DNA of 41,141 nucleotides from a virus. A model generated the notes under the pieces. That model saw only the letters and a program-made list of their open reading frames with translations, was not told the DNA's origin and ran no database searches. The translations under genes and the position numbers were made by a program. This document shows positions 4,637 through 32,919 of this stretch, in pieces (the first letter of the stretch is position 1; every line of letters begins with the position of its first letter). The stretch is from the IMG/VR virus record IMGVR_UViG_3300033980_000483, positions 1-41,141 of that record; one strand, written 5' to 3'.

Positions 4637-5389
4637 CTAAAACAAAGATAATTGCAGTGGCTTCTCAAGTGTTTTTGGTGAAACAGGCATTACGGGAATT
4701 TGCACTACTTCCGTAATTGGCGGCGCGTCTTGCACTTGGGCAACATAGCTAATTAATTGCATTAATCTCGTTCCCCTAATACGCGCTATCCGTTCCTCAA
4801 GTTCCCCATATTGATCAAAAACTTTCATTAGGCGATCGCTTCGATAATCTCCAGAATCAATTTCAGACTTACTAAAACCTAATCCCATCAATTGTTCGTA
4901 AATTTCCAAATATTCTCTAAATCTATTGTCAATATAAATAGTGTCGAGTTCAAATTGCACAGGGAATAAATCTCTGTTTTGACCTTCTAACGCCCAAGGG
5001 ATAATATGTTTTTGCCCCGATTCTGCTATGGCTATAGTAAAAGGCGGTTCAGGTGGATTTAACAAGTATTGCCTAATTCCCACCCTAGTCAGCAAGTTTT
5101 TAACTATTGAAAAAGTATCCTTGCCTTCTGTATATTCACCTTCAACGACAGGCGCAATTAGCTTATCACCCTGATAAACCCTGGACAAAGAACGTCCCCA
5201 CAGCTTTGACCATTTATTTTTACCTTCATTCCAGTACCAAAGCTGCTTTTGATTACCGGAAATTGTAGAGTGACAGCGATCGCATAGCACTTTAGACTCT
5301 GGACATTTAGCTGACGAGTGCATCGTGAATGTATTGGATAATTCCAAAGCATTAGATCCGGGTTTAGCGCAAAGGTAGCAATTAGACAT
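4637..5389 (-). CDS. csf1: Csf1-like (Cas8-like) subunit of a type IV-B CRISPR complex
   Basis: I choose the ATG at 5389 (250 aa) because it overlaps the cysH stop by 8 bases, like the other junctions; a start at 5419 would overlap by 38. The N-terminus carries C4-x2-C7 and C36-x2-C39, a zinc-finger pattern as in Csf1, the short large-subunit of type IV complexes, which are of similar size. The rest is alpha/beta without catalytic motifs. As last gene of the csf2-csf3-cysH-csf1 operon it would cap the RNA-bound filament. The family call depends strongly on context because Csf1 diverges fast. Confidence 0.75.
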   Translation of the reverse strand: MSNCYLCAKPGSNALELSNTFTMHSSAKCPESKVLCDRCHSTISGNQKQLWYWNEGKNKWSKLWGRSLSRVYQGDKLIAPVVEGEYTEGKDTFSIVKNLLTRVGIRQYLLNPPEPPFTIAIAESGQKHIIPWALEGQNRDLFPVQFELDTIYIDNRFREYLEIYEQLMGLGFSKSEIDSGDYRSDRLMKVFDQYGELEERIARIRGTRLMQLISYVAQVQDAPPITEVVQIPVMPVSPKTLEKPLQLSLF

Positions 5390-6128
5390 AGGTTGATACC
5401 TGTGGAAATTTAGTAGCAAATTGATTATAAATATCTGGGTAATGCTTTCTTAACTCTGCTAATCTTCCCCAGTTAGCACCTGTTGTACCGATTGGGCATC
5501 CATTCCTAACTGTCATTCTATCAACATCATAAATAGCAGGGTATTTTAACGAGTGCATATCAATATATTCCCAGATATTTTGAGTAGTCCAAAATGCCAC
5601 GGGTGAGCAACAAATCAACCCGTTTTTGAGCGTATGCACTTCACCATATTTGTTGAGATAAAATGCGCGGTTTTTGCTTTCTTGCTTACGTATTCCCCAC
5701 GCATAACCCTTAACATTATTCAATTCTTGGTATTCATTAAGCGGGTCATAAATCAGTTTTTGATTTATCAATTTATCGGCTTTTGTGTCCATCGTCCCTT
5801 CAAGGGGAACGCCATAATCCAGATACAAATGCCATAAATCACGCACTGGACAAAGTTCAATAATATTCCACCCCTGAGTTTTCAAAAACTCTAATAATTC
5901 AATGCAATCATCCCATTCAGCAAACATTCCCTGATTTACCCAGACCAATGGACAATCTGAGTAAACTTGCCTAATCAAATGTGACATCACTAGGCTATCT
6001 TTACCACCTGACACACTAGCGTAAACCTGATAATCGCATTGCTCTAACCATGTTTTAATTAAGTCTTTTGCCCTGGTTATTTTCTTTTTTAACCAGGGAT
6101 ATTGAACGCCAGATCCGTTACTTAGCAT
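5382..6128 (-). CDS. CysH-like PP-loop ATPase associated with type IV-B CRISPR
   Basis: 248 residues of the PAPS reductase / adenine nucleotide alpha-hydrolase family. SGGKDS at residues 40-45 is the PP-loop that binds ATP or an adenylylated substrate; GIRKQES (145-151) is the second conserved family motif. C173-C174 and C211 could serve redox or Fe-S chemistry. A cysH-like gene is the known ancillary gene of type IV-B loci; its function there is not established. Overlaps csf3 by 11 bases and csf1 by 8. A DNA phosphorothioation DndC is an alternative, but no other dnd genes are present. Confidence 0.88.
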   Translation of the reverse strand: MLSNGSGVQYPWLKKKITRAKDLIKTWLEQCDYQVYASVSGGKDSLVMSHLIRQVYSDCPLVWVNQGMFAEWDDCIELLEFLKTQGWNIIELCPVRDLWHLYLDYGVPLEGTMDTKADKLINQKLIYDPLNEYQELNNVKGYAWGIRKQESKNRAFYLNKYGEVHTLKNGLICCSPVAFWTTQNIWEYIDMHSLKYPAIYDVDRMTVRNGCPIGTTGANWGRLAELRKHYPDIYNQFATKFPQVSTYV

Positions 6129-6807
6129 AAATCACGTTATCCTTTGGCATATAGCACAACTCCTTGTTTGCCGCTAACCAAGCGGGACTTCTCCACCCCC
6201 AAACCATCTGAGGATTATCTATTTTTTGATCAAGTAATCTAACAGGGATAGGACGCATTAATTTACTATCACGCCACAGATGGTAATTATCGTAAATCAC
6301 CCCTATTTCCCATTCCCTGACTTCACCATTGCCGTAACTACGCTTTTTCTGAATGTGAGTAACAGACGACAAAAGATTTTTGATTGCCGTTTTATCGCCT
6401 ACAGCAAACCAAGAAATAGAATTAATTAACCTTGTGTAAAGCGGTAAATCATAGGATTTTTCCGCCCCTTCACCTGTTAAAAATTTGGGCTTACGCTTAC
6501 CCCAGTCTAAATTGTTTTCGTGATTATCCCATCGTTTTCTATATTTGTCTGTAGCTTCACCCTGCAAAACATAGCAAGGTGAACTCACGCACCAATATTT
6601 CTCTGACTTAATGACACCTTGTTTTAGTGGTAAATTCTGCTCAATAAACTCTTTGGTTTCTGCTACTTGATCTGGCGTGGGATTAGGTGAAAGTAGATTA
6701 TTTTGTTCTAAAAGCCTATAAACTAAAATCCCTTCTAGCGATGGACTCCAGTTGTCATAAGCACCCAAAGATGTCGCCAAATGTGCTGTAATTTTTAAGT
6801 TATCCAC
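6118..6807 (-). CDS. csf3: Csf3-like (Cas5 family) subunit of type IV-B CRISPR complex
   Basis: 229 residues, RAMP superfamily. The region HIQKKRSYGNGEVREWEI (residues 151-168) is the glycine-rich loop typical of Csf3/Cas5, following a helix; SLEGIL (23-28) matches the early 'plDgiL' signature. Cas5 caps the guide end of CRISPR complexes. The start is GTG at 6807 with an AAGGAG site 8 bases upstream, overlapping the csf2 stop (GGTGGATAA). Length is normal for Csf3. Confidence 0.85.
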   Translation of the reverse strand: MDNLKITAHLATSLGAYDNWSPSLEGILVYRLLEQNNLLSPNPTPDQVAETKEFIEQNLPLKQGVIKSEKYWCVSSPCYVLQGEATDKYRKRWDNHENNLDWGKRKPKFLTGEGAEKSYDLPLYTRLINSISWFAVGDKTAIKNLLSSVTHIQKKRSYGNGEVREWEIGVIYDNYHLWRDSKLMRPIPVRLLDQKIDNPQMVWGWRSPAWLAANKELCYMPKDNVIYAK

Positions 6808-7930
6808 CCAACAAACTCCTTAACTCAGTTGATGTTTTCGCCTCACTCAAAAACTGTTGATATTGATTGATATATTCTCTATATTTAGCGTGTGCCAGGT
6901 TAAATCTATCGCTCTCTACACCACTTTCAGAACTCCACAATAAACCACGTTCTGACTCAGAACTAAACCAGAAATTCATGCTGACTCGACCATTTCCGCG
7001 ATTGCCTTTACCACCTAAATACGGGAATTGTGCAAACTTCAATAAAGTATCAAAAATCCATCCCTGCTCAACTTGCGTACAGTTCAAATCCCATCTTGAG
7101 TATAGTTTTGCTCCTGGCATAATTAATCTATCGGAAGCAATCATTTGATCCGATTTTTTCTCTTTAGCTGCACCATCTCCCTTGAGTTGCGCCTGTACTT
7201 CTGTTGGCAGAAATTTAATCAAATTAGGATCTAAAGTTGCATCTCTGCGGGTAGTTTGATCAACCGTTAAATATTCAGACCATGTTTTCATTACTTTTCT
7301 AATCAAAGGCAAGTAGTCATTTTTTGCTTGATTCCAATTATCCAAATCTTCAGTTTTTGTGGGAGTGAATGGGTCTGAAGATAATTTATTTTTAGCCTCA
7401 ATTAGCTTCTGAATAGCGGGTTGTACTTCCGGTGGTAGTATCGCCGGAACTTGATTGTAAATGTATTCTGCTGACTCGTAACAAGACAAATAAGCAGATC
7501 CTACATTAATTCTGCCTTGCACCATTTGAGCATCTTTAGAGCCAAAAACCTTGGCGGGTTTAGCAGTTCCTAAGACCGACAACCAAGGCATTAGAACCCG
7601 GATCTTTTTATCAAGTTCCATATCTGAAGCTGTACCGGCATCAATCCTGCCACCTGCAAACATTGTATGGTGTGTATCAGGATTTACCTGTAATCCTAAT
7701 TCAGTTAACGCCGCAGCTACACCTACACGCCGTAACAAACCATTTCTCAAGGCATTTCCAGAATAGGTGAAAACACTTCTAGGATTACCTTCAAAATCCA
7801 GTAATTTTAAAGTTTTTAAATTACTAACATTGCCTGACACCTCGCCAATATGTGACAACGGCGTTTGTGTTGTGATTACACAGTGTAAAGTCAATCTTTC
7901 ACGGTCAAAAACATCGTAATTATCAAACAT
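6800..7930 (-). CDS. csf2: Csf2-like (Cas7 family) backbone protein of type IV-B CRISPR complex
   Basis: 376 residues with Cas7/RAMP hallmarks: TPLSHIGE near residues 23-30 (first strand and turn), SGNALRNGLLRR at 57-68 (helix that follows the first strand in Cas7 proteins), HHTMFAGGRI at 87-96, and QGRINVGSAYLSC at 138-150. Csf2 polymerises along RNA to form the helical backbone of type IV complexes. GAGGT precedes the ATG at 7930; it overlaps the previous gene by 8 bases. The best recognised gene of the operon. Confidence 0.88.
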   Translation of the reverse strand: MFDNYDVFDRERLTLHCVITTQTPLSHIGEVSGNVSNLKTLKLLDFEGNPRSVFTYSGNALRNGLLRRVGVAAALTELGLQVNPDTHHTMFAGGRIDAGTASDMELDKKIRVLMPWLSVLGTAKPAKVFGSKDAQMVQGRINVGSAYLSCYESAEYIYNQVPAILPPEVQPAIQKLIEAKNKLSSDPFTPTKTEDLDNWNQAKNDYLPLIRKVMKTWSEYLTVDQTTRRDATLDPNLIKFLPTEVQAQLKGDGAAKEKKSDQMIASDRLIMPGAKLYSRWDLNCTQVEQGWIFDTLLKFAQFPYLGGKGNRGNGRVSMNFWFSSESERGLLWSSESGVESDRFNLAHAKYREYINQYQQFLSEAKTSTELRSLLGG

Positions 7931-8234
7931 TTGTCACCTCAACTTCCTTGATTATTTTTGCAGAGTATTCCTCGGAGTAAATGCCTTGTATTGGCTGCTG
8001 CATTAGCTCCAGGAGGGCAGCACCATATATATTGTCAAAATTCAATTTTATCCATTGAATATTTGATATCCAATACCCATTATCCCAAAGAACTTCTCCT
8101 ATCCTTTTTCCGTTTCTGAGCAGCCAATAGCTGTTATTTTTAAATTCTGTTTCTATGAGTTGAAGATTGTTTTTGTAAAACAACGCTTTCAACTGAGTCT
8201 CTGAAAGATTTAAAAGAAATGAAAAATCTACCAT
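7923..8234 (-). CDS. unknown small gene inside the type IV-B operon (103 aa)
   Basis: I choose the ATG at 8234, which has GAGG 8-9 bases upstream; a start at 8258 would overlap the previous gene. The protein has an N-terminal helix (LSETQLKALFYKNNLQL), then a beta hairpin region (NSYWLLRNGKRIGEVLWDNGYWISNIQW) and a helical end. No known Cas family recognised. Its tight fit (4-base gap upstream, 12-base overlap downstream) makes it a genuine operon member and a possible accessory or inhibitor/adaptor of the complex. Confidence 0.75.
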   Translation of the reverse strand: MVDFSFLLNLSETQLKALFYKNNLQLIETEFKNNSYWLLRNGKRIGEVLWDNGYWISNIQWIKLNFDNIYGAALLELMQQPIQGIYSEEYSAKIIKEVEVTNV

Positions 8235-8238
8235 ACTT

Positions 8239-8757
8239 TTATACCTCAATGTTCTCAACTTCTATAAATTCTTCTGGTTCATCTAACCCTAAACTGCGGT
8301 CTTCCTCAAACCGTAATCTACAAATTACTTGAATAATCCCTGCTTTGGTTCTCAGTAGTTCAAGTACATCCCACTCACTAAATCCGTGTGGTTGAATGTC
8401 AGCAATTAAATCCAACCATCCCATAAATACAAGATTTTGGTCAACGGGAAGTTCTTTTATTTCCGTTACATCTTCATTTACTCTTAGTATCCGTTGTGTT
8501 GGCTGAATTATTTTAGTTAACTCGATTGGGCGTAATTGTGAACAAAGTTTATCACAAAGTCGCTGCAAATAATCTTCTAAATTAGTTGATATTTCAGCAG
8601 AGTTTCTAATACTTGATTCCAAGTAAGTCCAGGTTTTAGTACCCATTGCGGGACTACGTTTTCTGTCACGGCACTTGAAAGCCCAATAGGTAAGACAAGC
8701 GGCTACGCCATAACATTTGTCTCGTGTTTGAGACATTCCATAATTATTATTGTTCAT
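8239..8757 (-). CDS. candidate Cas11-like small subunit (172 aa) or unknown
   Basis: Mostly helical 172-residue protein (TWTYLESSIRNSAEISTNLE, then YLQRLCDKLCSQLR) lying just before the 103-aa gene and csf2. Type IV-B operons are known to carry a helical small subunit (Cas11) of roughly this size, which is otherwise missing here, so this is the best candidate. I see no sequence motif that proves it. Start at 8757, 46 bases after the upstream gene's stop; the C-terminus is strongly acidic. Confidence 0.5.
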   Translation of the reverse strand: MNNNNYGMSQTRDKCYGVAACLTYWAFKCRDRKRSPAMGTKTWTYLESSIRNSAEISTNLEDYLQRLCDKLCSQLRPIELTKIIQPTQRILRVNEDVTEIKELPVDQNLVFMGWLDLIADIQPHGFSEWDVLELLRTKAGIIQVICRLRFEEDRSLGLDEPEEFIEVENIEV

Positions 8758-23521: not shown

Positions 23522-24841
23522 TTACAGAGATAGGATTAACGCACATTTACGGAAGTCGCTGATTTTAGAACCAGTCAGCATATAGTAAGCGTTTTTCTCG
23601 CTTACTGTTCCGGTGTCGTAGTTGCCCCGGAATACCTGAATGGTCAGGTTTGTGTCGGGGTCGGTAATTGAAGCAGCTACCGCACCACTACCGGGGGATG
23701 GTTCAGCAATCCGACGGGTAGCCATCAATAAGCCTTCACGGTGGTTGACAGTGTTGATTGATGGGATACTAGGCACACTAAACAAGTCAGTACCGGGAAT
23801 GATTTGCGCTGCCAATAGTTTTGCGCCATTGGGGGAGAAAGGTACAACAGTAACGACGGGCGCGGTGGCTGTGGTTTTATCCAGCCTCAAAATCACGCCA
23901 AATGCTTTAGCTACGCCACTTGTACCAATTCTGATGATTTGCCCAACTGCCACGCTAGTAGATAAGGCTGTGGTACAAGTTAGGGTTAAATTAACCGCAC
24001 CGACGGAGGTAGTTGCGGCGTTGTCAGCGTAGGTGAAATCAGTATTAGCGGCAACTGATGCGATCGCTAAAGTTGCCTGTACACCTGCGTTAGTGTCTAA
24101 ATCTGCAACACCAGCTTGGCTAGAAATGACGTTACTTTGTCCAACCAAGAAACCAAACCGGGGTAGGAATGATTGAAAACCATTTTGGATTGCTTGACCA
24201 CCGCCAATGGTTGCAGCCGCAAATCCGGTAATAGCTACGGAATCCTGCAAGAATGCACCAGCCGCAACAGGGGAAATTAACCCAAATCTGTCAGTTTTAG
24301 GAACATTCTCTCTATCAAGAATTACACCCGCGCCAACTAACCCGGCACTATTGAAATTGGTCAATGCACCGGTAGTGGAATCTACACAAGCCGCAACACC
24401 TACCGGAGCGTTAGCACCTAAAGCCACCGTGCCAGTCGTTGCCGTCCAAGTAGTGAATAATGAGTTCATGTACTCATCATTTGGCGTAGCGATCGCATCC
24501 GCCATTTGAGATCCAGTTTCCGCTAAATATTTTTCAATGGTTTGACGTGGATCAATTCCGTAAGTCTGCCAGCCATCAAACCAAAGTTTTTCTAAGGTGA
24601 TAGAACCTGAGAAAAACGCAGCTTCATTAAAAGTACCAGCCGCAGAACGGGGATTTAATTCAGTGGCACGGCGACGCTTGGGACGACGGATTTTAACATC
24701 ATTGCCAACTTCAAAAGCACCGGGTTCGTAGTTAGTGACAGCGACACGGGGGTACATCGCCATCAGGTTTAATTGGGTTAATGCACTTTGGGCAATGCGA
24801 GTTTCTAAAAGTGCATCATTAGCGGTAAAGGTTGGTGGCAT
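23522..24841 (-). CDS. major capsid protein
   Basis: 439 residues. It follows the scaffold gene and shows HK97-fold-like features: an N-arm (MPPTFTANDALLETRIAQSA), a DVKIRRPKRR segment, a long glycine/alanine-rich central domain, and a C-terminal stretch with RGNYDTGTVSEKNAYYMLTG. Includes a Thr/Ala/Val-rich insertion around residues 265-340 that may be a surface Ig-like or beta domain. It forms the icosahedral shell. Call rests on length, order and composition. Confidence 0.8.
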   Translation of the reverse strand: MPPTFTANDALLETRIAQSALTQLNLMAMYPRVAVTNYEPGAFEVGNDVKIRRPKRRRATELNPRSAAGTFNEAAFFSGSITLEKLWFDGWQTYGIDPRQTIEKYLAETGSQMADAIATPNDEYMNSLFTTWTATTGTVALGANAPVGVAACVDSTTGALTNFNSAGLVGAGVILDRENVPKTDRFGLISPVAAGAFLQDSVAITGFAAATIGGGQAIQNGFQSFLPRFGFLVGQSNVISSQAGVADLDTNAGVQATLAIASVAANTDFTYADNAATTSVGAVNLTLTCTTALSTSVAVGQIIRIGTSGVAKAFGVILRLDKTTATAPVVTVVPFSPNGAKLLAAQIIPGTDLFSVPSIPSINTVNHREGLLMATRRIAEPSPGSGAVAASITDPDTNLTIQVFRGNYDTGTVSEKNAYYMLTGSKISDFRKCALILSL

Positions 24842-24868: not shown

Positions 24869-25648
24869 TTAAGCTTTCCCGAACTGCTGTTCGAGTAGTT
24901 GGTTATAAGCTTTCATCGCTTCAGGATCTTTGCTGTAAGTGTCGTAAATTTCCTGAGCAGTCATACCACCAAAGTTATATTGAGAAGTTTGAGGCGCACG
25001 ATTTCCCGGCTGTCCATCTGTTCCAGTGCCACCGCGCGGGACGGCAAAGTGAGCAAAATCTGACTCCAGCATTTTGGGTAGAATATCTTTAAATTCGGCG
25101 TTAATTTGTCCGCCAAATTTATCCTGAGATTTAACGAAAAATTTATCGCCATCTTCGACAATCAAGCCGCGTTTTTCTAGGAGAGTCAGTAAATCCTCTT
25201 CCGTATTTGGACGTACCGTACCAAGCGCTCTCATCTGCCCTAATACATCATTTCTCATGCGAGATTTGCGATCCGCTTCTCTGAGGGCTTGAGCTTCTTT
25301 GTCCCGTTCCTCAAGTTCTCGTTGAAGCTGGTTAAATTTAGCCTCGTATTCCTGTTTAGCTTTAACTAAAGCTGCATCAATTTCAGATTGTTTTTTGGGT
25401 TTTTCCTGTTGTTCCGCTTCGGCTTCTTTCCTGAGTTCGTTTAAAAATTCCAAGGTCGGATTAATCGCCCCAAACCGTTCGTCAAGTTGGCTAGGGATTG
25501 AGGTTGATAACCCTGTTAATGCTTCAGTCAACTTCCCGTTGTCGTACTGGACTTTTTCTAGCTGTTCTGATAGGGGCTTAACAACTTCCGTTATCGTGCC
25601 TTTGACGGCTTCTTGAATAGCTGCAAGGATTTCTGGTTCTAGCGACAT
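24869..25648 (-). CDS. capsid scaffold protein
   Basis: 259 residues, Gln/Glu/Lys-rich with a long coiled coil (about residues 80-130, LRKEAEAEQQEKPKKQSEID and LQRELEERDKEAQALREADR). C-terminus is Gly/Gln-rich and ends with a short helix (KAYNQLLEQQFGKA) of the type that docks onto capsid protein. No protease motif, so scaffold only. 27 bases before the capsid gene. Confidence 0.8.
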   Translation of the reverse strand: MSLEPEILAAIQEAVKGTITEVVKPLSEQLEKVQYDNGKLTEALTGLSTSIPSQLDERFGAINPTLEFLNELRKEAEAEQQEKPKKQSEIDAALVKAKQEYEAKFNQLQRELEERDKEAQALREADRKSRMRNDVLGQMRALGTVRPNTEEDLLTLLEKRGLIVEDGDKFFVKSQDKFGGQINAEFKDILPKMLESDFAHFAVPRGGTGTDGQPGNRAPQTSQYNFGGMTAQEIYDTYSKDPEAMKAYNQLLEQQFGKA

Positions 25649-25674
25649 AAGGTTGAATCAAAATTTTTAATATA

Positions 25675-25689
25675 TTTCCCACTGGGAAA
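25675..25689. promoter_or_regulatory. inverted repeat between divergent scaffold and decoration genes
   Basis: TTTCCC-ACT-GGGAAA lies in the only 64 bases between two divergent genes. It could be an operator or the base of a hairpin; there is no T-run typical of a terminator on the plus side. I found no clear -35/-10 here. Confidence 0.35.
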
Positions 25690-25712
25690 AATAAATTAAA
25701 ATGTAAAAACTT

Positions 25713-26663
25713 ATGGCTTTATCAGATATCAAAGATTTGTTGTCAGCTATTTGGGGGGTAACGAGAGATCGCATCCCTGTATTGTCCAACGGCAAAATCC
25801 CTGTAGAAGTTGGTAGCTTAAATGTCACGGTCGGCAATGCTTCTTTGGAGATCGCTAATGATGTCGGTAATCCTATTCCAATAAGCGATGCAGGCGGTAG
25901 TATTACTGTAGACGGTACATTCTGGCAAGCAACACAACCTGTAAGTGCTAGTAGCCTGCCTTTACCAAGCGGTGCTGCTACTAGTAGTTTACAAACTACC
26001 GCCAATACATCTTTATCTAATATTGACACCAAAACTCCAGTATTAGGGCAGGCTCTAGCTACCGCAAGCGTGCCAGTTGTTTTACCAGCCGCACAAATTA
26101 CCACACTTACCCCACCAACCTCTGTGGGTATCAGTGGTACATTACCAGCATTTACATCTACACCTACTTTTAATATAGGGACTGTTCCAGCAGGACTAGC
26201 TTATGTTGCGTCGAGGCTAGTAACAAGACCTGCTAACGTTACACCGTATACGGCTAATGATGTTTATGGCGGTGTATTTGAGTTAACAAATATTGGTGCT
26301 AGTGGTGGATTTGTATTTATTGAAAGCTTAGATATTATCTTTAATATCACAGCAGTTCCATCAGGCATGAGTAGTTTTACTCTGTACTTATATTCAGTAA
26401 CTCCACCATCAGCTATAGCTGATAACTTAGCATTTTCTATATCTTCAGAAGATAGAGCAAGTATTATGAATCCTAGAGGAATAACCTTATCTGCATTATT
26501 AGCTCAAGGTGGTGGTAGTGTAGTTGCTGAAACAAGAAACTTGAACCAACTTTATAAACTAACAGGTACTTCTCTGTTTGGATATGTGGTTACTAATGGT
26601 GCTTTCACACCTGCTGTAAATAGTGAATCTTTTACCATTCGTGCTAGGAGTTTTGCGCCATGA
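25713..26663 (+). CDS. hypothetical virion surface / fibre-like protein (316 aa)
   Basis: MALSDIKDLLSAIWGVTRDR is a helix, then about 130 residues low in charge and rich in Thr, Ser, Val and Pro, typical of extended or beta-structured virion proteins, then a beta-rich domain (about 160-316) ending in SFTIRARSFAP. The C-terminal part resembles head or tail appendage domains but no family is certain. Opposite in strand to the capsid genes; its stop overlaps the next start (ATGA), so the two are coupled. Confidence 0.6.
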   Translation: MALSDIKDLLSAIWGVTRDRIPVLSNGKIPVEVGSLNVTVGNASLEIANDVGNPIPISDAGGSITVDGTFWQATQPVSASSLPLPSGAATSSLQTTANTSLSNIDTKTPVLGQALATASVPVVLPAAQITTLTPPTSVGISGTLPAFTSTPTFNIGTVPAGLAYVASRLVTRPANVTPYTANDVYGGVFELTNIGASGGFVFIESLDIIFNITAVPSGMSSFTLYLYSVTPPSAIADNLAFSISSEDRASIMNPRGITLSALLAQGGGSVVAETRNLNQLYKLTGTSLFGYVVTNGAFTPAVNSESFTIRARSFAP

Positions 26664-27745
26664 GGACTTCTACTAAGGTTGTGGTATTGGGGAAGAACTC
26701 TTCTTTTCCAAACTACTATTTTCCTCTCGAACCCGTTGCTAATTTTATAGCAGCCCGTAGTTACAATTATGGGAGCGTGACAGACATACTAACAACTCCA
26801 TCAGGTACTTATCCGGGTACTTTTACTTTTGTTGGAGGAGTATTGTTACCTGATGGTAGAGTATTCTGTGTTCCTCATAACTCTCCTACAGCTAGAATAT
26901 ACAATCCAATTACAGATACTTTAACAACTCCATCAGGTACTTATCCGAGTTTTCATGGAGGAGTATTGTTACCTGATGGTAGAGTATTCTGTGTTCCTTT
27001 TAATTCTCCTACAGCTAGAATATACAATCCAATTACAGATACTTTAACAACTCCATCAGGTACTTATACGGGTAGTGGTGGTTTTGTTGGAGGAGTATTG
27101 TTACCTGATGGTAGAGTATTCTGTGTTCCTCATAACTCTCCTACAGCTAGAATATACAATCCAATTACAGATACTTTAACAACTCCATCAGGTACTTATA
27201 CGGGTTTTCATGGAGGAGTATTGTTACCTGATGGTAGAGTATTCTGTGTTCCTTTTAATTCTCCTACAGCTAGAATATACAATCCAATTACAGATACTTT
27301 AACAACTCCATCAGGTACTTATACGGGTAATGGTGGTTTTGTTGGAGGAGTATTGTTACCTGATGGTAGAGTATTCTGTGTTCCTCATAACTCTCCTACA
27401 GCTAGAATATACAATCCAATTACAGATACTTTAACAACTCCACCAGGTACTTATACGGTTACTTTTGGTTTTGCTGGAGGAGTATTGTTACCTGATGGTA
27501 GAGTATTCTGTGTTCCTCATAATTCTCCTACAGCTAGAATATACAATCCAATTACAGATACTTTAACAACTCCATCAGGTACTTATCATTCGGGTGCTGC
27601 TGGTTTTGCTGCAGGAGTATTGTTACCTGATGGTAGAGTATTCTGTGTTCCTTGTAACTCTACTACAGCTAGAATATACGGACTTCCACTTAGCAATAAT
27701 CTTCCTATAGGAAGAACTCACTCTGCTTTTGATAATAAATTCTAA
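26660..27745 (+). CDS. seven-repeat beta-propeller-like (Kelch-like) protein
   Basis: 361 residues made of seven near-identical repeats of about 40 residues, each with GVLLPDGRVFCVP and ARIYNPITDTLTTPSGTY. Seven blades are what a closed Kelch-type propeller needs, and propellers on phage appendages often bind sugars or receptors. Blades 1-4 alternate two versions (PHNSP with a long linker, PFNSP with a short one), indicating duplication of a two-blade unit. No signal peptide. Likely a receptor-binding or host-surface protein; inference. Confidence 0.75.
   Translation: MRTSTKVVVLGKNSSFPNYYFPLEPVANFIAARSYNYGSVTDILTTPSGTYPGTFTFVGGVLLPDGRVFCVPHNSPTARIYNPITDTLTTPSGTYPSFHGGVLLPDGRVFCVPFNSPTARIYNPITDTLTTPSGTYTGSGGFVGGVLLPDGRVFCVPHNSPTARIYNPITDTLTTPSGTYTGFHGGVLLPDGRVFCVPFNSPTARIYNPITDTLTTPSGTYTGNGGFVGGVLLPDGRVFCVPHNSPTARIYNPITDTLTTPPGTYTVTFGFAGGVLLPDGRVFCVPHNSPTARIYNPITDTLTTPSGTYHSGAAGFAAGVLLPDGRVFCVPCNSTTARIYGLPLSNNLPIGRTHSAFDNKF
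26786..27680 (+). repeat. tandem coding repeats, about 105-117 bases each, seven copies
   Basis: The words GTATTGTTACCTGATGGTAG and ACAGCTAGAATATACAATCC recur with almost no silent differences, so copies were made recently or are kept alike by gene conversion. Spacing varies by multiples of three, keeping frame. Expect copy-number variation and assembly trouble here. Confidence 0.9.
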
Positions 27746-27752
27746 AAAAACT

Positions 27753-28187
27753 ATGAACAAACAAACCTGGCTACTTAGTCAAATCAATGAATTTCCTGAA
27801 TTATCTGCTAGGGAATTAACTTCATATTTGAACGATAAGGTATTAGTTAATAATCCAGTTCCTATAGGACAAGTCCCTGTGACAACTACCTTAGAGGAAG
27901 TATCGGATGTAGTTACGGATGATGAAGTTTTAGCTATAGCTGAGAGTCCAATTTACGATAAGATTCTTGACGCAATTAATCAGAATAGACTTGATTGGAT
28001 TGTTGGAAATCTTACTACTTTAAAACGTGGTGGAAAATTAAGTCAAGAAAGTTATGATGCAATTTTAGTATTACTTCAAAGGACTGAATTAGACCCTAAT
28101 TATCAAGCACAAATATTAATAAGCCCTGCTGAATTGGCAGGATATGGAGCTATTTTGGTGAGTGATGTGGAAGAATTAATGGTCTAA
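27753..28187 (+). CDS. hypothetical protein after the propeller gene (144 aa)
   Basis: I choose the ATG at 27753, 5 bases after the propeller stop, over an upstream TTG at 27729. Mostly helical: NKQTWLLSQINEFPELSARE, EEVSDVVTDDEVLAIAESPI, DRLDWIVGNLTTL-like, ending AGYGAILVSDVEEL. No family recognised. Third gene of the plus-strand cassette 25713-28187; perhaps a chaperone or structural partner of the propeller protein. Convergent with portal, 11 bases apart. Confidence 0.65.
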   Translation: MNKQTWLLSQINEFPELSARELTSYLNDKVLVNNPVPIGQVPVTTTLEEVSDVVTDDEVLAIAESPIYDKILDAINQNRLDWIVGNLTTLKRGGKLSQESYDAILVLLQRTELDPNYQAQILISPAELAGYGAILVSDVEELMV

Positions 28188-28198
28188 TAGCGATCGCA

Positions 28199-29683
28199 TC
28201 ACAAATCCGTTGCGTCAATTTCCGCAAGTGCCAATTGAACGGCTTGCGGATCAAGGTCATAACTTCTGGCAGCCCGTTTCACAAAATGCTTTTGCACTTC
28301 CTTTTTAAATATTGGGGACGGAATATTTGCAGTATCAATGAGAGCCATATCCTCTAAAAGTTCCGTCAGCGAAAAGCCCAGAAACTCATCATAGCCTGTA
28401 ATCTCCCAATCAACAATTTCACCGTGGGCGATCGCTGCGGGTTTCAAAACTTGCAAAACAAATTCCTTAACACATTGTCCGTAACGCTCTAACAGGATTT
28501 CTTCTGGCCTTCTATCCTCAGCCTTAGAGACTCCAGAACGGGCAATAATCGCCGCGCCATCAGACGCACTCATGGCTATTTGCTGCAAAACATCATAAAT
28601 ATCTCGCTTAATTTCCGAGCGATACCCGATAGCTGTCTGAATATTTGCGCCGCTACGCTCAAATGACGTTATTGATTGTCCGGTTTTCAGAGTCAGATAA
28701 TACCCGTCTCCCATTTTCCGATTTTGCAGTGGATCATCATCTTCATCGTCCACGCCCGTAATCACGGGCATTGCGTAATTATTTGTGTAAAGCGCGTATT
28801 CCATCGCTGCGGTTTGATTGAAATACGACTTTTGACAATCAAACAATTGCGCCGCCATCCATAGCGATTTAGGTAAAGTCAGAGTAACGATTGGAAATTC
28901 AAATTTACCTCGCACATTGAAAATTGGCTGGTCTTCGATAACAGTTTCAATCGTTATTTCTTTATCAGTTGCCGTGTTAATAAATGGATTTGGCGGTACG
29001 GGTTTATTGTCTTTGGGGATTAATCTGACAATATATTTAGAGGTAAAAACCGCCCCGTCTCTACGGTAAAAAATAGTAAAAATATGCTGTGGAACTGGCG
29101 CACTATCCCACGTTTGCTGCACTAATTGAAACTGGTGTAATTTGCAAAAACTGAACCCGTCCCGTCCGCTTTTCCAATCCCATAAAGCAGTTCTAGGGTG
29201 GAGAATTACATACGGATTTAACTCTCCTGACTCTTTTTGCTGTGCAAGCGAAACCGCCCCAACCGCTGATTTAGTATCTATTTGTGCAATAGCTTTACCA
29301 GTCGTTAACGCCATAAACATACTATTCATCAAGAAAGTATTGAACGATGCCCGCCCGTCGTCGTCACCTTCTAATAATGCGCCATTTTTAAAAAAATCAT
29401 CACTCCAAAACGGGTCATTGCTTCCAGTTGGGACAGCCGGATTTTTAAATAATTCAGAGTTGAACCGGCTCAAAATTGGCGAGATTTTATTGCAGTAAGT
29501 CGCCAGCTTGACCCGCTCCTTCATGATTTCCTCTGGCCTGCCGTCGGGGTTGGGGAGTAACTTCCGTTTCATAACATCGGTTATTGAGTCGCCACCCTCA
29601 ACTACTGCGGTGAGCAATTCCCAATACTCGCAAAATTGGATATGTTCAGGATGACGGCGTTTAAGTGCTTCTAGTGTTGGCAT
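28199..29683 (-). CDS. portal protein (DUF4055-like)
   Basis: 494 residues. NSMFMALTTGKAIAQIDTKS and NPYVILHPRTALWDWKSG match portal proteins of the DUF4055 type, with a C-terminal EDRRPEEILLERYGQCVKEF helix and clip-region sequence. Portals form the twelve-fold ring through which DNA enters and leaves the head. Normal length. A terminator lies 32 bases upstream of its start, so it needs a promoter in the short gap before it, or readthrough. Confidence 0.82.
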   Translation of the reverse strand: MPTLEALKRRHPEHIQFCEYWELLTAVVEGGDSITDVMKRKLLPNPDGRPEEIMKERVKLATYCNKISPILSRFNSELFKNPAVPTGSNDPFWSDDFFKNGALLEGDDDGRASFNTFLMNSMFMALTTGKAIAQIDTKSAVGAVSLAQQKESGELNPYVILHPRTALWDWKSGRDGFSFCKLHQFQLVQQTWDSAPVPQHIFTIFYRRDGAVFTSKYIVRLIPKDNKPVPPNPFINTATDKEITIETVIEDQPIFNVRGKFEFPIVTLTLPKSLWMAAQLFDCQKSYFNQTAAMEYALYTNNYAMPVITGVDDEDDDPLQNRKMGDGYYLTLKTGQSITSFERSGANIQTAIGYRSEIKRDIYDVLQQIAMSASDGAAIIARSGVSKAEDRRPEEILLERYGQCVKEFVLQVLKPAAIAHGEIVDWEITGYDEFLGFSLTELLEDMALIDTANIPSPIFKKEVQKHFVKRAARSYDLDPQAVQLALAEIDATDL

Positions 29684-31240: not shown

Positions 31241-31921
31241 CTAAGTATTAGACTGAACTTGTCGCAAAACTTCCACTTGCCGATCAAAACTTGGCGCATT
31301 CTCAGGGTTGTCGTGAAACCCCAAAATATGTGATTGGGGAATGGTGATTGATCCTAATCTTTCATCTGAATCTTTGCGCCAAATCATAGCGATAATTGGC
31401 ACTGAATCCGTCTGCCATTGCTTACCATCCTTACGTTTTCTAAATTTGAATCTTGGGTAAATTAAATCTAAATTGCGAGGGTTTGCAAACAACCATTGTC
31501 CGCGTTCTTCTGTTGGTTCGACAAACGATAGTCTTAAGAAGAAAACCACGCCCAATCGCGCATGATTTAAGCTGTTTTTGAGAATTGGTAAAGCTGCATT
31601 AAATGGCGGATTTGTGATAATCCAATCAGCTTCAGGCAGTTGTTCCCATGACTTTGGATCAGCCGCGTCAAGGTTAAAATCTGCATCAACCGACGGGTCT
31701 AGATCGTTTGTCCAGTGATAGCCTACCTGGTCAAAGTAGGGGAGTAAATTTGATATATTCCCACTACCTTTACAGGGTTCGCCGACGATGCCCTCTAATT
31801 TGACGTAATTGGGTAAATGGGTGACAAACCAGTGGGGACTATCGTAACGGTCAAAATCATGACGTTTCATGATTGGTTTTGGGATTTCTTCTACGGGAAA
31901 ATCTAAAGTTAATTGGTTCAT
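31241..31921 (-). CDS. N6-adenine DNA methyltransferase
   Basis: 226 residues. GEPCKGSG (47-54) is the SAM-binding motif I and DWIITNPPF (99-107) the catalytic motif IV of adenine-N6 methyltransferases. No restriction endonuclease adjoins it, so it is a solitary phage methylase, probably protecting phage DNA or regulating genes. Its start overlaps the SANT gene stop (ATGA). A second DNA-modification gene of this phage is the Mom-like one at 15470. Confidence 0.85.
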   Translation of the reverse strand: MNQLTLDFPVEEIPKPIMKRHDFDRYDSPHWFVTHLPNYVKLEGIVGEPCKGSGNISNLLPYFDQVGYHWTNDLDPSVDADFNLDAADPKSWEQLPEADWIITNPPFNAALPILKNSLNHARLGVVFFLRLSFVEPTEERGQWLFANPRNLDLIYPRFKFRKRKDGKQWQTDSVPIIAMIWRKDSDERLGSITIPQSHILGFHDNPENAPSFDRQVEVLRQVQSNT

Positions 31922-32919
31922 CTGTCGTTCTTAATTCTTGCTGGTGAATATGCGGCTCTGTTCTTTGCATATTCCCGAATTACCTCGCAATATCTCACAG
32001 CCGATTTAGGGCTATAGGAATGAATAAGTTTCGTTTGATGAATTTGTCCGACAGTCATTTCTGGGAATTGCGACAAAATTTCATTAATCCCAATCTTGAC
32101 TTGTTCTTCAGGTTGTCCAAATAATTTGGCAACTTTGTCAATGGAATTATTGCTAATTCGCTTGATCAAAAGTATGTCGTTTTTAGGTGTCCATGTTGGC
32201 TCTACTACTGGATCTGTTATTGATTCCATGCTTGATTCTATGCTTGATTCTATTGTTGGTTCTACGGGTTGTTTGACATCGTTGAAACCAACAAAATTTA
32301 TCAGCGATCTTGTTGGTGTAGGTAGTGGTAATGGCACTAAATCTATTTTCAGTAGTTCCCTCCTACGTCGTCCAGCAGTTGGAATGGAGACTCCCAGCTT
32401 TTCCGCTGCTTGGTGAAGATAGCCTTGTAAGCAAATCTCCTTTTCCTCTTCTGTGAAGATTTTATGATGTTTTAGTTTCTTTGGAGAAACGCCTAATGCT
32501 TTGCATCTATGGTCTATTTGAGTGCGAGACGCTTTAAGTGTTTCTTCTAACTCTGGATAAGTTGAATCATTCCCGAAAGTAAGTAAATAATTGTCCTCTT
32601 CTTGCGTCCATTTCTTATAGTTTGTCTGTTTCTTTGGAGAAACGCCTAATGCTTTGCATCTATGGTCTATTTGAGTGCGAGACGCTTTAAGTGTTTCTTC
32701 TAACTCTGGATAAGTTGAATCATTCCCGAAAGTAAGTAAATAATTGTCCTCTTCTTGCGTCCATTTCTTATAGTTTGTCTTGGGTTGTTTTAGCTGTTTC
32801 ACGCTCTTCCCCTCCATTCTTTGCTTGTGATATCGGACATTTCTGATGTGAATATTTAGGATTTTGGCAGCTTCACGGGGTGAATTTTCTGCGATAATCT
32901 TCAGTTGCTCTGCATTCAT
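31918..32919 (-). CDS. SANT/Myb-like DNA-binding protein with duplicated domain
   Basis: 333 residues. After an HTH-like start (SPREAAKILNIHIRNVRYHK) come two identical 51-residue domains beginning TNYKKWTQEEDNYLLTFG and ending HRCKALGVSPKK, each a SANT/Myb-like three-helix fold, then a third helix-rich domain and a linker of repeated SSIESSMES. Probably a multi-site DNA-binding protein. Between DnaB and the methylase, it may help select the origin or regulate the operon. Confidence 0.75.
   Translation of the reverse strand: MNAEQLKIIAENSPREAAKILNIHIRNVRYHKQRMEGKSVKQLKQPKTNYKKWTQEEDNYLLTFGNDSTYPELEETLKASRTQIDHRCKALGVSPKKQTNYKKWTQEEDNYLLTFGNDSTYPELEETLKASRTQIDHRCKALGVSPKKLKHHKIFTEEEKEICLQGYLHQAAEKLGVSIPTAGRRRRELLKIDLVPLPLPTPTRSLINFVGFNDVKQPVEPTIESSIESSMESITDPVVEPTWTPKNDILLIKRISNNSIDKVAKLFGQPEEQVKIGINEILSQFPEMTVGQIHQTKLIHSYSPKSAVRYCEVIREYAKNRAAYSPARIKNDR
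32475..32780 (-). repeat. perfect tandem duplication, period 153 bases
   Basis: Two head-to-tail copies (32475-32627 and 32628-32780), essentially identical at DNA level over about 150 bases, each encoding one SANT-like domain (51 codons). The lack of silent changes means the duplication is very recent or is kept alike by gene conversion. Confidence 0.9.

Follow-up and report, generated by a model that had tools for sequence, protein, structure and literature searches.

Phage receptor-binding propellers, highly repetitive propellers and modular receptor-binding proteins are each already known (PMC4901313; PMC9218822; PMC8262889). Among the phages, gp45 of phi11 and P2 of PRD1 have five blades and gp131C of PhiKZ has seven, and the propeller acts as a receptor-binding or baseplate-peripheral domain of the virion, a role that for PhiKZ has been proposed and is unproven (PMC4901313). 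The propeller gene that we analyse here (gene 2) resembles these proteins in that respect and had no sequence match to any of the three in a phmmer search; it is set apart from them by description, as they have not been described as exchangeable single-gene tips with near-identical blades. Near-identical blades and recent amplification are features that gene 2 shares with the highly repetitive beta-propellers common in cyanobacteria (PMC9218822; 2ymu), from which it differs in being viral, in having seven blades in most relatives and in having moved between phages as a gene. Modular tail fibres and tailspikes, for example those of Klebsiella phages, combine a constant anchor, an exchanged tip and horizontal transfer (PMC8262889). 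The three-gene cassette to which gene 2 belongs likewise has a conserved anchor with an exchanged specificity domain, but it differs from them in its tip, which is a gene of its own that has a short leader and is accompanied by a conserved partner gene, and in its occurrence at head as well as tail loci.

The same trio is present in an isolated cyanophage, Aphanizomenon phage vB_AphaS-CL131 (MG209611), as gp025-gp026-gp027. As in the DNA studied here, the CL131 genes form a three-gene cassette with short gene overlaps, and the C-terminal domain (CTD) of gene 1 is 67% identical by tblastn; gene 3 is 54% identical by tblastn when gene 3 of the related locus L005 is the query. Unlike gene 2, the CL131 middle gene is annotated as an alpha-L-arabinofuranosidase (a lectin-like tip), and there is no propeller. 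The main text of the CL131 genome paper does not describe the function of the cassette, and virion proteomics of this phage have been published (PMC6293099). Literature searches of open-licence papers returned no description of the cassette, and a three-gene socket consisting of a conserved adaptor domain, leader and partner gene, which takes tips of unrelated folds and occurs at head as well as tail positions, appears to be new.

The window, the whole stretch of 41,141 nucleotides that was analysed (IMG/VR record IMGVR_UViG_3300033980_000483), carries the cassette on the + strand at 25713-28187, between a scaffold-like and a portal-like gene that both lie on the − strand. This opposite-strand placement had been claimed in the original prediction and was borne out by the ORF calls and by the PHROG 145 and PHROG 206 matches of the flanking genes. 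The features of the locus are as follows.

23522-24841, − strand: major capsid gene, beyond the scaffold gene (PHROG 267, E 9e-5)
24869-25648, − strand: scaffold gene, one flank of the insertion (PHROG 206, E 6.9e-12)
25649-25712, no strand: divergent 64-bp gap between the scaffold start and the gene 1 start (read directly)
25713-26663, + strand: gene 1, 316 aa (alignments; AlphaFold2)
25713-26183, + strand: variable N-terminal half of gene 1, putative anchor (alignments)
26184-26660, + strand: conserved jelly-roll CTD of gene 1, putative adaptor (alignments; AlphaFold2)
26646-26650, + strand: AGGAG within the last gene 1 codons, likely ribosome-binding site of gene 2 (junction sequences)
26660-27745, + strand: gene 2, exchangeable tip; propeller at residues ~41-344, nucleotides 26780-27691 (repeats; fold prediction)
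26660-26692, + strand: conserved leader of gene 2, MRTSTKVVVLG, common to tips of unrelated fold (alignments)
27753-28187, + strand: gene 3, partner protein of 144 aa when counted from its conserved start (ATG at 27753), proposed assembly helper (alignment; 78 viral relatives)
28199-29683, − strand: portal gene, other flank of the insertion (PHROG 145, E 1.7e-21)

The stop codon of gene 1 and the start codon of gene 2 overlap as ATGA at 26660-26663, and the AGGAG is kept in most of 34 distinct gene 1/gene 2 junctions. AlphaFold2 modelled residues 161-316 of gene 1 with pLDDT mostly of 80-92. The ORF of gene 3 opens upstream of its conserved start, at a TTG at 27729; for gene 3, Pfam gave nothing above cut-off (best RdfA, E 0.15) and PHROG gave no hit. 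The 64-bp gap could hold a promoter of the reversed cassette's own; a scan for promoters and terminators gave no clear excess over shuffled sequences. A palindrome within the gap, TTTCCCACTGGGAAA at 25675-25689, is a possible operator or hairpin.

Gene 2, the middle gene of the three, opens with an ATG and encodes 361 aa. As had been predicted, it contains seven near-identical repeats, each of 41-44 residues and spaced in the protein by 41, 44, 41, 44, 44 and 45; Tandem Repeats Finder (TRF) detected a 132-nt array (score 1276) and a 255-nt array (score 1525), both far above chance. The repeats correspond to the following blades, all assigned by a blade profile; the tail that follows them is listed last.

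26780-26911, + strand: blade 1
26912-27034, + strand: blade 2, short type (98% identical to blade 4)
27035-27166, + strand: blade 3 (99% identical to blade 5)
27167-27289, + strand: blade 4, short type (also by DNA identity)
27290-27421, + strand: blade 5 (also by DNA identity)
27422-27553, + strand: blade 6 (also by DNA identity)
27554-27691, + strand: blade 7, most diverged (also by DNA identity)
27695-27742, + strand: conserved C-terminal tail, ...RTHSAFDNKF (relatives have variants of LS[AP][YF]xNK[LF])

Successive blade starts are separated by 132, 123, 132, 123, 132 and 132 nt. The two alternating versions of the original prediction are therefore real, but the alternation runs only through blades 1-5, blades 6 and 7 both being of the long, 132-nt type rather than the short, 123-nt type. 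In DNA, blades 2 and 4 (98% identical) and blades 3 and 5 (99%) are more alike than most other pairs (94-96%) and than pairs that include blade 7 (87-88%). Together with the distances between blade starts, these identities indicate that the recent event was the duplication of a 255-nt two-blade unit, blades 2-3 giving rise to blades 4-5, in line with the 255-nt array and with the earlier proposal of two-blade duplication. An LS[AP][YF]xNK[LF]-like motif closes nearly all propellers of the gene 2 family (relatives L111-L182), the N-terminal parts of which vary; the region of this motif in gene 2 has low confidence in the AlphaFold2 model.

The model of gene 2, built from 12 related sequences, had a pTM of 0.74 and block-mean pLDDT values mostly of 66-92 across the repeats, with values <50 at residues 1-40 and 346-361. 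Its top Foldseek match was a designed seven-bladed propeller, and VIA aligned it with virginiamycin B lyase over residues 39-344 at Z 28.5, many other propellers scoring within 1-2 Z units. On the basis of the model and of the extent of the VIA match, gene 2 is predicted to form a closed seven-bladed propeller, and the open solenoid that the original prediction had named as the contrary outcome was not found. With ORFs flagged as truncated at a contig end set aside, 65 of the 78 ORFs of relatives have exactly seven blades, a constancy expected of a closed ring; several of the exceptions begin inside the array at a contig edge. Of the Kelch-type propeller that had been proposed, the seven-bladed ring is upheld by prediction, but the family assignment is not supported: a Pfam search gave no Kelch model at E <= 1, and the repeats contain GG and Tyr but in no case Trp. 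Membership of the WD40 family also fails, with no GH or WD dipeptides and no Pfam WD40 model; the phmmer match of gene 2 to the repetitive Nostoc WD40 protein 2ymu (E 1.3e-36) is inflated by the repeats. The Pfam and PHROG matches that the propeller does obtain are short repeat artefacts.

Relatives of gene 3 were found at 78 viral loci. Nearly always, the gene upstream encodes a protein that carries the leader MR[TN]STRMVVLG, in this or a variant form, and that is preceded, again nearly always, by a protein ending in the gene 1 CTD. Across these relatives, the gene 1 CTD, the ~10-residue leader of gene 2 and gene 3 are kept, and the remainder of gene 2 is exchanged. The cassette, which had been called unusual, is therefore a recurrent trio that many phages share, and in some of them it runs on the strand of the tail-tip genes. 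The middle genes comprise propellers, LamG/ConA-like tips (Laminin_G_3, 9e-6; ArabFuran-catal, 2e-5; each slightly short of the curated cut-off) and FDTDAQ-type, CBM-like and LRR-like tips, the last three classes being named only by the look of their sequences. When 53 distinct loci were clustered by tip and downstream gene, all seven backbones sampled at two or more loci carried at least two tip classes. The backbone of the window is one such case: in L026-L028, the tip at this reversed site is LamG-like. DNA homology between the window and L027 (~81%) stops at 26691, in codon 11 of gene 2; it starts again at 27746, directly after the gene 2 stop codon. In L031, which has a 74%-identical portal and no cassette, the portal, scaffold and capsid genes are directly adjacent, and L025 and L030 carry other reversed genes at the portal/scaffold site, which indicates that this gap accepts insertions. 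In some phages there are two or three different genes for seven-bladed propellers, in most cases next to one another (L128, 5001-9049; L154, 4602-8759; L161, L162 and L170).

Evidence that the propeller has an evolutionary history of its own came from two relatives. The phage of L003 is a sister of the window phage, with DNA identities of 100% for the scaffold, 99.5% for the major capsid and 98.5% for the portal gene; the gene 1 CTD and gene 3 are 98.1% and 96.8% identical, but the propeller is only 80.5% identical. L004 belongs to a different phage, with the cassette in a tail-tip cluster, and its propeller is 93.4% identical to that of the window at the DNA level, compared with 52.7% for the gene 1 CTD and 58.4% for gene 3. 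As the propeller is closer to L004 and the flanks are closer to L003, these comparisons indicate that the propeller gene moved on its own between otherwise unrelated phages. This transfer, the exchange of tips over kept flanks and the presence of several tip classes in 7/7 backbones support the suggestion that the cassette is a variable module of the receptor-binding type. Within the proteins of the window, L003, L004 and L005, blade likeness is 0.90-0.93, higher than between most pairs of these proteins, a pattern that fits repeated amplification within each propeller; the window and L004 are an exception because of the transfer. An origin of the propeller in a host genome was considered and rejected, as a scan of 84,980 species returned only three distant relatives. 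Phage records with relatives of the propeller were limited to two Cylindrospermopsis phages and one Vibrio phage, at identities near or below 30%.

The gene neighbours of the cassette or its parts are head genes in the window and tail or adsorption genes in L004, L152 and Rhizobium phages. In L004, the cassette lies between gpJ-like and gpL genes (Phage_tail_L, 1.3e-21), and in L152 the propeller directly follows PAAR, Baseplate_J and Tail_P2_I genes, where a tail fibre gene is usually located. Relatives of the gene 1 CTD in Rhizobium phages adjoin an adsorption-associated tail protein and a tail-collar protein, or lie downstream of baseplate J, and in L010 the propeller is fused to a Phage_min_tail domain (E 4e-6, below the curated cut-off). 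Within the blades, variable positions cluster after the FCVP motif (3.3 bits) and also in the D-A loop, where 109 of 132 are distinct; the blade motif used for this count required Cys, and invariance of this residue is not claimed. The variable residues thus fall in the B-C and D-A loops, which lie on the same face of a propeller of standard topology, and we infer that this face is the recognition face.

Taken together, these observations suggest that the cassette is probably a horizontally swapped virion adhesin in which gene 2 would be the receptor-binding tip. The gene context in relatives makes attachment to the tail more likely than attachment to the capsid, although the local position of the cassette and the cement-like fold of the gene 1 CTD favour the head, where the tip could sit in this phage. 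The location among head genes and the cement-like fold count against the adhesin-tip reading, as does the relative G003: its cassette also occupies the portal/scaffold site, and its gpJ-type tail-tip genes precede an 864-aa protein (L185, 5063-7657), a candidate for a tail adhesin in its own right. Further points against it are the lectin-type Pfam scores, slightly short of the curated cut-offs, and the small set of 12 sequences behind the AlphaFold2 model. A search of the window, G001 and G002, all of them incomplete records, gave no tail-tip J or M genes (PF13550, PF05939). The separate tail-tip genes of G003 would also suit a capsid fibre or decoration, in which a cement-type jelly roll of gene 1 displays the propeller on the head; there it would serve to attach the phage loosely to cells, mucilage or particles, and not in tail-mediated receptor recognition. 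This arrangement, which we regard as unlikely but deserving of consideration, is consistent with the site between portal and scaffold, with cassettes near the terminase or portal in L042 and L047 and with a propeller gene in L015 that, by eye, lies beside P22-like portal, scaffold and capsid genes. Moreover, the best VIA matches of the gene 1 CTD were capsid/cement proteins of the phages GP4, Pam1 and KHP40, at Z 7.5-7.8. However, these values are below 8 and under the level at which VIA advises trust, many unrelated jelly rolls scored 6 to 7.6, and the likeness is one of jelly-roll fold only, with no sequence match to the cement proteins. The same cassette and propeller domain also occur in tail-tip and tail-fibre loci.

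The cassette could instead be a moron, an independently transcribed accessory unit that acts in or on the infected cell and is absent from the virion, for example in superinfection exclusion or, given that many propellers are enzymes, as a lyase-like enzyme. Its opposite strand, its insertion between conserved genes, its presence in some relatives and absence from others and the top fold match to virginiamycin B lyase are in keeping with such a role. We consider it improbable, given the exchange of the propeller for lectin-like tips, the fusion to tail proteins and the tail-gene neighbours; the propeller fold is, moreover, common to hundreds of non-enzymes in the same VIA list. Least probable is an assembly artefact or degenerate repeat with a wrong blade number and no functional seven-bladed ring. 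The contigs of L017, L018, L019 and L020 do end inside the array, and L007 has six blades. By contrast, a second record (L002, 55,814 bases) carries an identical seven-blade copy, a closed ring is predicted for gene 2, and seven blades recur in 65 of 78 relatives, some of which have diverged, easily assembled blades. As L002 is possibly not from an independent sample, collapse of the repeat from short reads keeps a slight probability.

If the cassette is a virion adhesin, gene 1 would anchor it to the particle through a phage-specific N-terminus and end in the conserved jelly-roll adaptor, into which gene 2 may plug through its ~10-residue leader. Gene 2 would bear the exchangeable host-recognition tip, here a seven-bladed propeller produced by blade duplication, and gene 3 may help assembly. 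Recombination at the conserved flanks would allow phages to swap either just the tip or the cassette as a whole, and so to alter specificity for surface glycans or receptors. A broader and more doubtful proposal, which we put forward tentatively, is that the adaptor, leader and helper form a mobile general adhesin socket that takes gene-sized tips, with phage-specific anchors mounting it on head or tail. If this were true, unrelated cyanophages would plug in tips of different folds, mounted on the head in the lineage of the window and on the tail in others. The conserved flanks (gene 1 C-terminus, leader and gene 3) make tip genes easy to find in metagenomes, and natural pairs of near-identical phages that differ mainly in the tip offer a direct way to test how tip and host are linked. 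Fast amplification of blades and the swapping of propellers as whole genes are also documented here in viruses.

Sequence composition bears on the host. The HIP1 octamer, GCGATCGC, occurs at 16 sites in the window versus 0.23 expected, an over-representation of ~70 times, which is a cyanobacterial signature. CL131 and a Nodularia phage are among the relatives, and these and the HIP1 excess indicate that the phage of the window is a cyanophage. As one of several unrelated, interchangeable tips, the propeller is probably the host-recognition part of this cyanobacterial virus. How phages of bloom-forming cyanobacteria recognise their hosts is poorly known. One copy of HIP1 (28190-28197) occupies the 11 bp that separate gene 3 from the portal gene.

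Other features were noted in the window and in related records. The ORF at 31918-32919 (− strand) contains a perfect tandem duplication of 2 x 153 nt (32475-32780) that is polymorphic, with one copy in the otherwise identical record L029 (282 versus 333 aa) and two in L003. Large ORFs that look TnpB-like by eye are present in related phage records (L183, 3264-5147; L086, 3-1589). Finally, a type IV CRISPR-Cas operon lies inside the phage record at 4637-8757 (− strand), with PADLOC matches to Csf1, Csf3, Csf2 and Cas11 and a CysH-like gene at 5382-6128 within the region, which we take to be the gene set of subtype IV-B.
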